Shown here: positions 5,608-28,466 of the stretch, piece after piece
Layout: the number at the start of each line of letters is the position of its first letter
Position numbering within the stretch: position 1 is the stretch's first letter
Source of the DNA: Bacillota bacterium
GTDB lineage: Bacteria > Bacillota > Limnochordia > Darwinibacteriales > DTU012
Reading direction: 5' to 3'
Length of the DNA: 32,782 bases
Assembly (NCBI GenBank): GCA_012837335.1
Contig: DURM01000003.1
Location: forward strand, 1 to 32,782
The notes under the pieces: generated by a model
Told to the model about the DNA's origin: nothing
Databases searched by the model: none
The model's input: the letters and a program-made list of their open reading frames with translations, nothing else
Made by a program: the position numbers and the translations under genes

Positions 5608-5778
5608 GTGCCAAGCAAACAGCAGATGCTGCTAGTAGGTCAGACTTGCAGTGAATATGAGCGCGCAGATGAAAATGCAGAGCGAAGCTGCGAGTCATGC
5701 ATGCACTGGACCGGAGAACAGTCCATGTGCGAGCTGGATATATTTTTGGAGCAGTTGACGAGTTTAGATCAGACATAA
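5608..5778 (+). CDS. Small cysteine-rich protein (56 aa)
   Basis: GTG at 5608 is preceded by AGGAGGGA at ideal spacing, and the frame runs to TAA at 5776-5778, which opens directly into a strong terminator. The product has four cysteines. One is near residue 14; the others form the cluster SCESCMHW...MCELD near residues 28-41, suggesting a zinc or iron-sulfur site. The rest is acidic and probably helical. I do not recognise a named family. Good ribosome binding site, correct placement before a terminator and the clustered Cys pattern support it as real. It lies between the FMN protein and the RseC-like protein on the same strand. Confidence 0.7.
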   Translation: MPSKQQMLLVGQTCSEYERADENAERSCESCMHWTGEQSMCELDIFLEQLTSLDQT

Positions 5779-5803
5779 AAAGCGGTGTCACACCGCTTTT
5801 TAT
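5777..5803 (+). terminator. Intrinsic terminator after the small Cys protein
   Basis: AGCGGTG (5781-5787) and CACCGCT (5791-5797) form a 7-bp GC-rich stem with a 3-nt loop, flanked by A's and followed by TTTTTATTATCTTTT. It separates the small gene from the RseC-like gene, so the latter may depend on read-through or on a weak promoter I could not identify. Confidence 0.85.
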
Positions 5804-7499: not shown

Positions 7500-7528
7500 T
7501 TGACTAAAAATATCACAGTATGTATAAT
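7500..7528 (+). promoter_or_regulatory. Promoter of the tRNA-Met gene
   Basis: TTGACT (7500-7505) and a perfect TATAAT (7523-7528) are separated by exactly 17 bp. The tRNA begins 12 bases after the -10. Confidence 0.85.
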
Positions 7529-7540
7529 AAAGATTGTCAC

Positions 7541-7617
7541 GGCGGCGTAGCTCAGTTGGTCAGAGCATACGGTTCATACCCGTAGTGTCGCTGGTTCAAA
7601 TCCAGCCGCCGCTACCA
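7541..7617 (+). tRNA. tRNA-Met (CAT), elongator
   Basis: This is a complete cloverleaf of 77 nt including an encoded CCA. The acceptor arm is GGCGGCG/CGCCGCT (G1 pairs with U72), the D arm GCTC/GAGC, the anticodon stem TACGG/CCGTA with loop TTCATAC, and the T stem GCTGG/CCAGC. The paired position 1-72 and the absence of three consecutive G-C pairs in the anticodon stem exclude the initiator. The body resembles elongator Met tRNAs more than the lysidine-modified tRNA-Ile(CAT). Confidence 0.95.
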
Positions 7618-7626
7618 TATTTTGCG

Positions 7627-7661
7627 AAAAACCCTAGTATTGTACAGGGTTTTCTTTTTTT
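7627..7661 (+). terminator. Terminator of tRNA-Met
   Basis: AAAACCCT and AGGGTTTT (7628-7635 and 7646-7653) form the stem, followed by C and a run of eight T's. The T run leads straight into the TATAAT at 7662-7667. Confidence 0.85.
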
Positions 7662-7667
7662 TATAAT
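7640..7667 (+). promoter_or_regulatory. Candidate promoter upstream of spoIIE
   Basis: A perfect TATAAT at 7662-7667 follows the tRNA terminator. The best -35 is TTGTAC at 7640-7645 with a 16-bp spacer, a weak match inside the terminator loop. Transcription would start near 7674 and the leader would contain the whole inverted repeat at 7687-7735. A promoter further downstream, for example with a -10 near TATGTT at 7703-7708, is an alternative. Confidence 0.4.
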
Positions 7668-7673
7668 AGAGCA

Positions 7674-7680
7674 ATCGACA
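7674..7680 (-). promoter_or_regulatory. Possible Spo0A box (0A box)
   Basis: On the minus strand these bases read TGTCGAT, six of seven matches to the 0A-box consensus TGTCGAA. spoIIE is a classic Spo0A-activated gene, so the location is sensible. A 7-mer with one mismatch is common by chance, hence the modest score. Confidence 0.35.
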
Positions 7681-7686
7681 GATCTT

Positions 7687-7735
7687 ATCCCCTAGGTGTG
7701 ATATGTTAAACGTAATTATATCACGTCTAGGGGAT
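7687..7735 (+). promoter_or_regulatory. Long inverted repeat covering the spoIIE ribosome binding site
   Basis: Arms 7687-7704 and 7718-7735 are 18 bases each with a 13-base loop. As DNA they match at 16 of 18 positions. As RNA the two exceptions become G-U pairs, so all 18 positions can pair. The right arm contains the Shine-Dalgarno AGGGGAT of spoIIE and the first two bases of an upstream ATG at 7734. It may be a translation-controlling hairpin or a DNA operator, depending on where transcription starts. Confidence 0.6.
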
Positions 7736-7742
7736 GATTGGT

Positions 7743-9818
7743 ATGGAAAGGACCGAACCAAGCGCGCAGAATTATCGGCTGGTACCGCTGGAAGTTAAAC
7801 GGAAGCGCAGAAGCAGGATTCAACCGGTATCATTATCATTGAGAATACCGTGGATGCTGATACTGCTGGGCTTCTTTTTAAGCCGTGCCCTGTTGTTGGA
7901 CGAGCTGCTGCCTTTTGGCGTTGCATTTTTAGCAGCGGTATATCGAGGCCCTCGCCCCCGCTCCTGGTGGGCGCTTGTGAGCGTGGGTTTAGGCTACTGG
8001 TCTCTTGGGCAGGGTTCAGCGCTGTTCCCCTATTACGCTGCATCCCTCTTGGTCTGGTTGGCGGGGCGCAGCCGCAAGCTGAGGCAGAAAAATGGTTATT
8101 GGGTTTTCTGGATTTTTGTCAGTTTTTTAGGCGTTAAGGCACCCTTGGCGATCAGGTACGGTGGTGTCAGCTATCCCATGATCTGGATCACAGCCTTTAG
8201 TGAAGCTTTAATAGCCATCGCAGCTTTCAGTATGTTTTCCACATTTGTCAACAAAAACCGCACTTACGCTTTAGATAGTAGAGAGTTTCAGGCCGGACTG
8301 CTGCTGACAGCGGTATGCTTAGGGATAGACCTTGTCATCGGGCAGATGTCGCTGCGTTTAATGATCATGTTTTACTTGGTTCTGGCAGCAGCCAGGATTG
8401 GGGGAGCAGCTCTGTCCTTCATGATTGGACCGATTTTTGCCATCTTCAGTCAGCTGATCGGCCTGCCGCTGGAAATCGCTGTTTTGATTACAGGAGCAGC
8501 TGTGATTAGCGGGTTGTTGGAAAAGATCCCTTTTGGTTTATTCGCAGCTGGTTTGGCAGCGTATTTTTTGACTTACCGGATTCCGGTTGCTCCGGAAAGT
8601 GTGCAGAACTTGTTCGAACTGCTCTTGGCAGCAGCAGCGGTTTATCTCACTCCCACGCAGCATCTGCGTCAGTTAGGACGTTTAATTCCTGGGACAAGCC
8701 AGTATGTCAGTCGGCAGGCATCTCATGCTGCTCGAGCGCAGCAGATTCTAGAAGAGCGGATCAATCAATTTTCAGAAGTTTTAGATGAGTTGGCTGAAGT
8801 TCTGGAAGGCAGTCGGTTCATTGCGCAGCAGCTGAGGAGTTTAGCGCGAGTAGTAGCGCTGCTGGGAACAGAATTAAGTACTCGGGTCGAGTTTGCCGAG
8901 GCGGTTGAGGAACGGCTGTGGCAGGAAGTAAATTCGCCTGAGCTTAATGAACTGACAGTCCTGCAGACAGATGGCTGTTTTTCGATTGCCGGCCGGCGGC
9001 TCAGCCGCTGTGGCGAGCACTGGTGCGACCAGGTCGCAGCGGCCTGTTCTAATCTATTGGGGTCCAGTTTTGCGGTTGCGGAGCGCAGCTGTTTAACCAC
9101 CGGTGAATGCGGGTTTGACATTTCCAACAAAGCAAGGTATGTTGTAGATGTGAAGACAGCAAAAATCGCCCATGGACAAGTCTCGGGAGATAACAACGCT
9201 ATCTTTAATTTATCCACCAACCGGGTGGGACTTCTGATCAGCGATGGAATGGGTACCGGTGAGCGGGCTGCAAGCGACAGCCTGGCAACGGTGAGGCTTT
9301 TGGAAAAAATGATTAGGGTGGGTTATGATCCGGATTTGGCAGTTAAGGTGATCAATCAAACGCTGCTGGCCCGCAGTACTACCGATTCCTTTGCTACGAT
9401 TGATCTTGTTGTTGCAGATCTGGAGACGGGACAGCTAGAGTTTGTCAAAATTGGCGCGGCACCAAGTTTTATCAAGCGGGATCGCAGTGTTGAGGTCATT
9501 CAAAACCACGCTCTTCCCATCGGTATTCTCAATCACGTTGAGGTGGAACCGGAGCGACGCCTGCTGTATGAAGGTGACTATCTGGTCATGATTACCGACG
9601 GCATGCTGGAATTTCAGCGGGATGTAGTCAACAAGGAGCAGTGGTTATGCAATGTGCTCAGGCGGGTGGAGGATGATTTGAACTGCCAGGAGCTGGCCAG
9701 TTATCTGCTGCTTAAGAGCATCGAAGCAGCTAATGGTGCCATTTCTGATGACATGATGGTGTTGGTTGCCCGCTTACTCCGCAGCGATCCGGAAATCCAT
9801 CCGTACCAAAGGAGTTAG
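7743..9818 (+). CDS. spoIIE: Stage II sporulation protein E (PP2C-type phosphatase)
   Basis: SpoIIE is a polytopic membrane phosphatase at the asymmetric septum. It dephosphorylates SpoIIAA and so activates sigma-F in the forespore. The 691-residue product is somewhat shorter than Bacillus SpoIIE (about 827). Residues 30-320 hold roughly ten hydrophobic segments, followed by a helical regulatory region near 330-410 and a C-terminal PP2C domain. That domain has VGLLISDGMGTG with a metal-binding Asp near residue 499, and SDDMMVLVARL near the end with another. The start is ATG at 7743, nine bases after AGGGG; an ATG at 7734 overlaps the site. tilS follows after five bases, and its ribosome binding site lies inside the end of this gene. 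Confidence 0.95.
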   Translation: MERTEPSAQNYRLVPLEVKRKRRSRIQPVSLSLRIPWMLILLGFFLSRALLLDELLPFGVAFLAAVYRGPRPRSWWALVSVGLGYWSLGQGSALFPYYAASLLVWLAGRSRKLRQKNGYWVFWIFVSFLGVKAPLAIRYGGVSYPMIWITAFSEALIAIAAFSMFSTFVNKNRTYALDSREFQAGLLLTAVCLGIDLVIGQMSLRLMIMFYLVLAAARIGGAALSFMIGPIFAIFSQLIGLPLEIAVLITGAAVISGLLEKIPFGLFAAGLAAYFLTYRIPVAPESVQNLFELLLAAAAVYLTPTQHLRQLGRLIPGTSQYVSRQASHAARAQQILEERINQFSEVLDELAEVLEGSRFIAQQLRSLARVVALLGTELSTRVEFAEAVEERLWQEVNSPELNELTVLQTDGCFSIAGRRLSRCGEHWCDQVAAACSNLLGSSFAVAERSCLTTGECGFDISNKARYVVDVKTAKIAHGQVSGDNNAIFNLSTNRVGLLISDGMGTGERAASDSLATVRLLEKMIRVGYDPDLAVKVINQTLLARSTTDSFATIDLVVADLETGQLEFVKIGAAPSFIKRDRSVEVIQNHALPIGILNHVEVEPERRLLYEGDYLVMITDGMLEFQRDVVNKEQWLCNVLRRVEDDLNCQELASYLLLKSIEAANGAISDDMMVLVARLLRSDPEIHPYQRS

Positions 9819-13234: not shown

Positions 13235-13261
13235 TCCTAGTCCTTATAATAAGGACTAGGA
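13235..13261 (+). terminator. 12-bp hairpin after ftsH
   Basis: Arms 13235-13246 and 13250-13261 are perfect complements with a 3-nt loop. The following bases ATTTACATA give only a poor T tract. It may be a weak terminator or an mRNA 3'-end stabiliser between ftsH and folB. Confidence 0.5.
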
Positions 13262-27478: not shown

Positions 27479-27755
27479 AGCATAACCAAAAAACAGGAAA
27501 GCTAAAAGAGATGATAGGGATCAGTAGGTTTATTGGCGCTCATCCAGAGAATAGGTGCCAGCGGCTGGAAGCACCTTATGGGCAGATAAATCGAAATGCA
27601 CCCTTGATCTGTCAATCCGAACATCATTGTCAGTAGGGTTGGCCGGGTTGTGGACGTTATTACACATTGAAGTGCCTGGACAGCTTGTTACGCTGTTCAG
27701 GAAACAGAGTGGAACCGCGAGCCCTCGTCTCTGTCCAAGAGCTGAGGGCTTTTTG
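27479..27755 (+). promoter_or_regulatory. T-box riboswitch, cysteine specifier
   Basis: This leader of about 280 bases binds uncharged tRNA and then prevents termination. AGAGTGGAACCGCG at 27706-27719 is a near-consensus T-box sequence (usual AGGGUGGNACCGCG). The terminator follows: AGCCCTC (27720-27726) pairs with GAGGGCT (27744-27750), then TTTTTGTTT. A candidate specifier TGC lies at 27597-27599 in the context CGAAA-TGC-A, on the 3' side of the long Stem I. TGC is a cysteine codon, which fits the downstream cysE and cysS. The 368-base gene-free stretch 27423-27791 is thus explained; open frames inside it are not genes. Confidence 0.93.
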
Positions 27756-27791: not shown

Positions 27792-28466
27792 ATGTTTAGA
27801 AACATCTGGGATACTCTGCGTAAGGATATTCAAGCGGTTAAAGAGAGGGATCCCGCAGCGCGCAATGTGTTGGAGATTCTCCTTACTTATCCTGGATTTC
27901 ACGCCCTGGAAATACACCGCATTGCCCACTGGCTGCACCGCCATAACTTAAGAATGCTGGCGCGGATTATCAGCCATATAAATCGCTTTCTCACAGGCAT
28001 AGAGATCCATCCCGGAGCCAAGATCGGTAAAGGTGTTTTTATTGATCACGGCATGGGAGTGGTAATCGGCGAAACGGTGGTAATCAAGGATAATGTTACC
28101 CTCTATCAAGGGGTTACGCTGGGGGGGACTGGCAAAGAAAAAGGCAAACGCCATCCAACTATTGAAGAAGGAGCTGTAATTGCCTGCGGCGCGATGGTGT
28201 TGGGATCATTTACAGTTGGCGAGAACGCCAGGGTGGGAGCCGGCGCCGTTGTGCTGAAAAGCGTACCAGCTAATTCCACCGTGGTAGGGGTTCCCGCTAA
28301 AGTGGTCGTTCAGAACGGCCAGCGCGTCAATAAACTGGATCACGCCAATGTTCCGGATCCATGCGCGCAGCAGGTAGCAAAACTGGTTGATCATATTCAG
28401 GCGTTAGAATTGAAAATTAATGAGATGCAGAAACAGCTTGATGAGCAGAAAGTAAATGCATCCTAA
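27792..28466 (+). CDS. cysE: Serine O-acetyltransferase
   Basis: CysE acetylates serine with acetyl-CoA to form O-acetylserine, the precursor of cysteine. The 224-residue product has an N-terminal helical part and a left-handed beta-helix of hexapeptide repeats ([20 protein letters not shown] onward). IDHGMG supplies a catalytic His, and [14 protein letters not shown] is the acetyl-CoA loop region. The C-terminal tail is an extended charged helix. The start is ATG at 27792 behind GGGGGT. It is the first gene after the cysteine T-box, so it should be induced when tRNA-Cys is uncharged. Confidence 0.96.

Follow-up and report, generated by a model that had tools for sequence, protein, structure and literature searches.

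Complementarity between the promoter spacer and the Shine-Dalgarno sequence of spoIIE suggests a guard against read-through translation in endospore-forming bacteria

Immediately upstream of spoIIE in the genome segment analyzed here, a window of 32,782 nucleotides from a Bacillota bacterium, lies an inverted repeat whose left arm is embedded in the promoter of the gene and whose right arm contains its Shine-Dalgarno (SD) sequence. We propose that the resulting hairpin probably serves as a guard against read-through, such that spoIIE would go untranslated until Spo0A fires the gene's own promoter, and comparison of leader sequences indicates that this predicted SD-hiding design recurs more often than expected by chance across the spore-forming phylum. 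Sporulation has sigma-F as its first compartment-specific sigma factor, which SpoIIE sets off; the silence of spoIIE in growing cells, with an always-on tRNA operon just upstream, is usually credited to the promoter alone. A phylum-wide RNA lock within that promoter would, if confirmed, constitute an unsuspected layer of control on a classic developmental gene, one that is testable in Bacillus subtilis; it would also provide a searchable signature, complementarity of a gene's SD to the spacer of its promoter, for genes whose expression by read-through has to be prevented.

The gene (7743-9818; all features of the locus are on the forward strand) codes for a membrane domain and a PP2C phosphatase, and is identified as spoIIE by its SpoIIE_N and SpoIIE phosphatase domains (PF07228 and PF19732) and by a match to TIGR02865 at 1.5e-98 that falls below the curated cut-off of that model; tilS and ftsH follow it. 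Upstream and co-directional is a tRNA-Met gene (CAT anticodon, 7541-7617; ARAGORN and Rfam), with a promoter, TTGACT-17-TATAAT, at 7500-7528 that matches 11 of 12 consensus positions in a promoter scan and is the probable source of any read-through RNA. Between the two genes is an intrinsic terminator (7628-7662) with stem AAAACCCT/AGGGTTTT, a 10-nt loop and a T-run at 7655-7662, recognized from the sequence; it was omitted by the automatic terminator scan, in which loops were limited to 8 nt. The tRNA has the same position next to spoIIE, and the terminator the same layout, in relatives, and the arrangement tRNA-Met, terminator, spoIIE is shared by relatives at genus, family and order level.

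The repeat itself is as originally predicted, and a repeat search recovers the same arms: ATCCCCTAGGTGTGATAT at 7687-7704 and ATATCACGTCTAGGGGAT at 7718-7735, each of 18 nt, around a 13-nt loop (7705-7717). The arms are 89% complementary, with 16 of 18 positions forming Watson-Crick pairs and the remaining two, G7696/T7726 and T7697/G7725, being G-U compatible, and every position can thus pair. The predicted RNA fold of 7674-7760 has an energy of -34.6 kcal/mol (z -4.5), a stability equalled by none of 200 dinucleotide shuffles. The SD sequence AGGGG (7729-7733; anti-SD duplex -6.9 kcal/mol) lies inside the right arm, also as predicted. The start codon had been described as adjoining that arm, and an in-frame ATG at 7734 does touch it, but comparison with relatives shows that the conserved spoIIE start is the ATG at 7743, nine nucleotides after the SD. 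The repeat is present once in its 2.4-Mb genome, which rules out a mobile or repeated element, and the right arm is followed by GATTGGTATGG with no U-run, unlike the GC stem and U-run of an intrinsic terminator.

Overlapping the repeat is a promoter of the Spo0A-activated type. The box TCGACA (ATCGACA) at 7675-7680 occupies the -35 position and is followed, after a 21-bp spacer (7681-7701), by the -10 element TATGTT at 7702-7707, which was assigned by comparison of leaders from the same order and, with a TG one base upstream, is of the extended kind. It is the spacer that bears the SD-complementary sequence (z -6.9 in this window). Read on the opposite strand, the consensus form of the box, TTCGACA, gives the Spo0A core box TGTCGAA, and in B. 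subtilis spoIIE is directly targeted by Spo0A (PMC3485338). All 30 leaders of the order contain TCGAC[AG]-N21(22)-extended -10, with the box 21-22 bp from the -10, the -10 element of one of them (L011) being poor. Across the phylum, the looser pattern GAC[AG]-N20..22-TAnnnT is found in 150 of 187 spoIIE leaders, in 133 of them at a spacing of exactly 21, compared with 1 of 27 dnaA leaders and 12 of 30 spoIIGA leaders used as controls.

From the position of the -10 element, transcription is predicted to begin within the loop, at 7713-7716 and most likely near 7714, with the right arm falling in the first transcribed region. The native mRNA would therefore lack the left arm, which overlaps the -10 element and precedes the predicted start, and the hairpin could not form in it; a cis-acting switch or thermometer would carry both arms in its own transcript. 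With the left arm inside the promoter, only RNA arriving from upstream contains the two arms together, and the question becomes whether such read-through RNA is closed. The original prediction that the ribosome binding site is shut in the normal spoIIE mRNA thus gives way to a narrower one: with the start placed in the loop by the conserved Spo0A promoter, the native mRNA is predicted to be open and only read-through RNA to be closed. Translational control of spoIIE, as first suggested, is still the likeliest role for the repeat, although one limited to read-through RNA.

Whether the complementarity is more than a peculiarity of one locus was addressed with sets of spoIIE leaders: 30 from the order, then 15 from the class and 60 from the phylum, and 80 more that were fetched after the prediction had been written down. 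The full set comprises 187 leaders from 72 families, with promoter-anchored tests performed on 150. In the 30 order leaders, the duplex energy of each left part (spacer plus -10) was computed against every right part, and cognate pairs are stronger than permuted ones (z -6.1, p<1e-4), a result that also holds in either of the main family groups taken alone (p 0.0005 and 0.002). The promoter-anchored swap of spacers and SDs among all 150 leaders gives z -9.9 for cognate against permuted pairs, and two separate phylum sets, the second being the validation subset, give -5.5 and -5.6, alongside the -6.1 of the order; composition-matched shuffling of the spacers gives z -12.4. A second statistic, in which the SD window is compared with upstream positions -115 to -24 using dinucleotide-shuffled controls, has mean z values of -1.44 in the order, -0.95 in the class and -1.23 in the phylum, while 74 further genes from these loci average -0.06. 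The 80 held-out leaders, for which the prediction had been set beforehand, have a mean z of -0.99 (Wilcoxon p 2e-7), and family averages are negative in 56 of the 72 families (p 8e-8). Pairing is individually significant (p<=0.05) in 60 of the 187 leaders, roughly two thirds having none at that level.

The excess is largely a property of spoIIE, whose mean z of -1.27 (n=107) compares with +0.25 for spoIIGA (n=30, p 2e-6), +0.24 for dnaA (n=27, p 7e-6) and -0.70 for spoIIAA (n=30, p 0.047), with a further 19 spoIIAA leaders averaging -0.07. A sliding map locates it as well. For the spacer, complementarity falls on the SD window, positions -21 to -3 (z -1.03), while the coding region scores about zero; for the SD, the strongest match falls in the promoter spacer, and a second, lesser peak is seen immediately 5' of the 0A box. 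Complementarity thus follows the SD window, bearing out the suggestion that the pairing belongs to the RNA and targets the ribosome binding site. We note that the 12 spoIIGA leaders (among L155-L184) with a GACA-N21-TAnnnT promoter have a weakly negative mean z of -0.54.

The proposed sequence of events is as follows. The Spo0A-activated promoter would drive spoIIE from a -10 element located where the left arm meets the loop, with a start in the loop, yielding an mRNA without the left arm, whose ribosome binding site would not be hidden by the hairpin. RNA that originates at the tRNA-Met promoter and passes an imperfect terminator would carry both arms, with the SD paired. Vegetative read-through would in consequence yield no SpoIIE phosphatase, and early switch-on of sigma-F would be avoided; the guard thus probably stops the accidental making of a cell-fate protein. 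The tRNA terminator should, however, already limit read-through, which counts against this interpretation.

Several other explanations deserve consideration. The original prediction offered as its alternative a long operator over the spoIIE start, that is, a dyad-symmetric site on which a repressor would control transcription, and the repeat is indeed nearly perfect as DNA and covers both the -10 element and the start. This is unlikely, because the arms change while complementarity to the cognate SD stays: arm sequences vary between congeners in which the Spo0A box is constant, the register shifts between relatives, and the complementarity is confined to the SD window, whereas a protein operator has no reason to track the SD as its own sequence changes. 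Nor does the genome contain a second copy. The hairpin, a long duplex between two transcription units, could alternatively act in read-through RNA in some other way, as a site for RNase III-type processing or as a roadblock keeping tRNA and spoIIE RNA apart, the SD pairing being incidental; given that the partner profile is centered on the SD rather than elsewhere in the leader, we consider this very unlikely.

The model first put forward, in which the main transcript begins near 7674 and has its ribosome binding site closed until a signal or temperature opens it, draws on a TATAAT at 7662-7667, and RNA from such a start would contain the full hairpin. This TATAAT is unlikely to be the spoIIE promoter: it overlaps the terminator U-run, its first T at 7662 being the last T of that run, it has no -35 partner by scan, and it is missing from the relatives L005-L007, whereas the Spo0A promoter is universal. 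As Rfam also has no match at the repeat site, and so no known switch or thermometer family there, we regard the model as a whole as highly improbable. Chance pairing of pyrimidine-rich spacers with purine-rich SDs, which the two thirds of leaders that are not individually significant might seem to favor, is excluded by the swap test and the composition-matched shuffles and is contradicted by replication of the excess in held-out leaders, so that we give it almost no credence.

The read-through guard also makes contact with predictions at the RNA level. A promoter was called in 46 of the significant leaders, and in 41 of these the left arm stops 5' of the last base of the -10 and would therefore be absent from the native RNA. 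Predicted SD openness in the 150 leaders falls from 0.386 in the native to 0.263 in the read-through RNA, with a drop in 113 of them, although it also falls somewhat in the dnaA and spoIIAA controls; the values are 0.45 and 0.03 for this window and 0.80 and 0.11 for the Bacillus-type leader L095. The two G-U-compatible mismatches had been taken to favor an RNA role, and across leaders the ratio of G-U to A-C mismatches is 36:16, against 14:9 in permuted pairs, a weak excess that is suggestive only. Fixed-register covariation in a seven-sequence family alignment is no better than with shuffled letters, because the helix is re-made in a shifted register between relatives while the complementarity is kept; the RNAalifold consensus from the family alignment is weak. 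A transcription start downstream of 7704, together with arms that neither covary nor are conserved, had been named as what would speak against the original prediction, and the outcome is divided: the inferred start is indeed downstream of 7704, yet arm complementarity is conserved.

If read-through is the reason for the pairing, leaders whose upstream neighbor lies on the opposite strand should lack it. The first set was in line with this expectation (20 opposite cases, p 0.013), and the pre-specified validation (13 opposite cases) had the same direction without replicating that result (p 0.19), neighbor calling being crude; we therefore make no claim for upstream gene direction as a predictor.

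The closest counterparts are the phage T4 genes I-TevI, I-TevII, I-TevIII, segB, soc and e, and mobE of phage Aeh1, in which hairpins hide the ribosome binding site in long upstream transcripts only; late RNA, owing to the position of the late promoter, does not include the arm that hides the site, and translation proceeds only from the gene's own late promoter (PMC2988022). Here, similarly, the ribosome binding site is predicted to be paired in a long transcript, and the predicted start would place the spoIIE promoter such that native RNA lacks the 5' arm; the candidate for an upstream promoter reading into the gene would be that of tRNA-Met, albeit with a terminator in between. Unlike the T4 examples, which are phage genes under a phage late promoter, spoIIE is a chromosomal cell-fate gene timed by Spo0A, and its hiding arm is embedded in the promoter spacer and recurs across the phylum with changing sequence. 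In Tn10/IS10, where fold-back inhibits transposase read-through, RNA coming in from outside has its SD sequestered by an inverted repeat close to the unit's end. The sequestering of the SD in incoming RNA is shared, but there a mobile element shields itself from outside promoters, with no developmental activator. The long undecoded transcript isoforms (LUTI) of yeast, 5'-extended transcripts of the same gene that are untranslated, depend on upstream ORFs and chromatin rather than on SD pairing.

The spoIIE gene of B. subtilis has a Spo0A-activated sigma-A promoter with 21-bp spacing. The promoter in this window resembles it in its 0A-type box at -35, long spacer and -10, a grammar that the Bacillus-type L095 fits, and differs in the proposed translational layer, none being described for B. 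subtilis in the literature searched. That literature, which leaves out most subscription papers, contained no paper linking spoIIE with read-through or with sequestration of the ribosome binding site. More tentatively, and as a possibility against which we lean slightly, endospore formers across the phylum may have repeatedly re-evolved an anti-SD segment in the spoIIE promoter spacer, a single piece of DNA then being both a Spo0A promoter and, when transcription comes from outside, an RNA lock; spoIIE expression would thereby require, as in an AND gate, that promoter and RNA end both be correct, and spoIIAA of one family (L204, L205) suggests that such insulation could be general for cell-fate genes.

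Some individual leaders depart from the common layout. In several families (L101, L102, L132, L134 and L140) the complement of the spoIIE SD lies just upstream of the 0A box and not in the spacer. In L009, the spoIIE leader of genome G007, about 40 nt are inserted between the -10 and the SD, yet pairing of the SD with the spacer ACATCCCTGCGATGTGT persists (z -2.2). In the two spoIIAA leaders L204 and L205 (genomes G132 and G087), the SD is complementary to a C-rich segment just upstream, TATCCCCTC and CGTCCCCTCCTT respectively (z -3.4 and -4.7), within an apparent sigma-H promoter spacer, the same design at the sigma-F operon.

Elsewhere in the window, Rfam identifies a T-box leader at 27502-27735 (110.5 bits), upstream of an ORF at 27792, and a weak group II intron match at 44-125 (42.1 bits, against a cut-off of 40), at the window edge and adjoining murB. 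The repeat search found three perfect hairpins of 13-14 bp with loops of 1-2 nt, at 5775-5803, 13235-13261 and 1038-1065, the last of which has A7/T7 flanks and looks like a bidirectional terminator.
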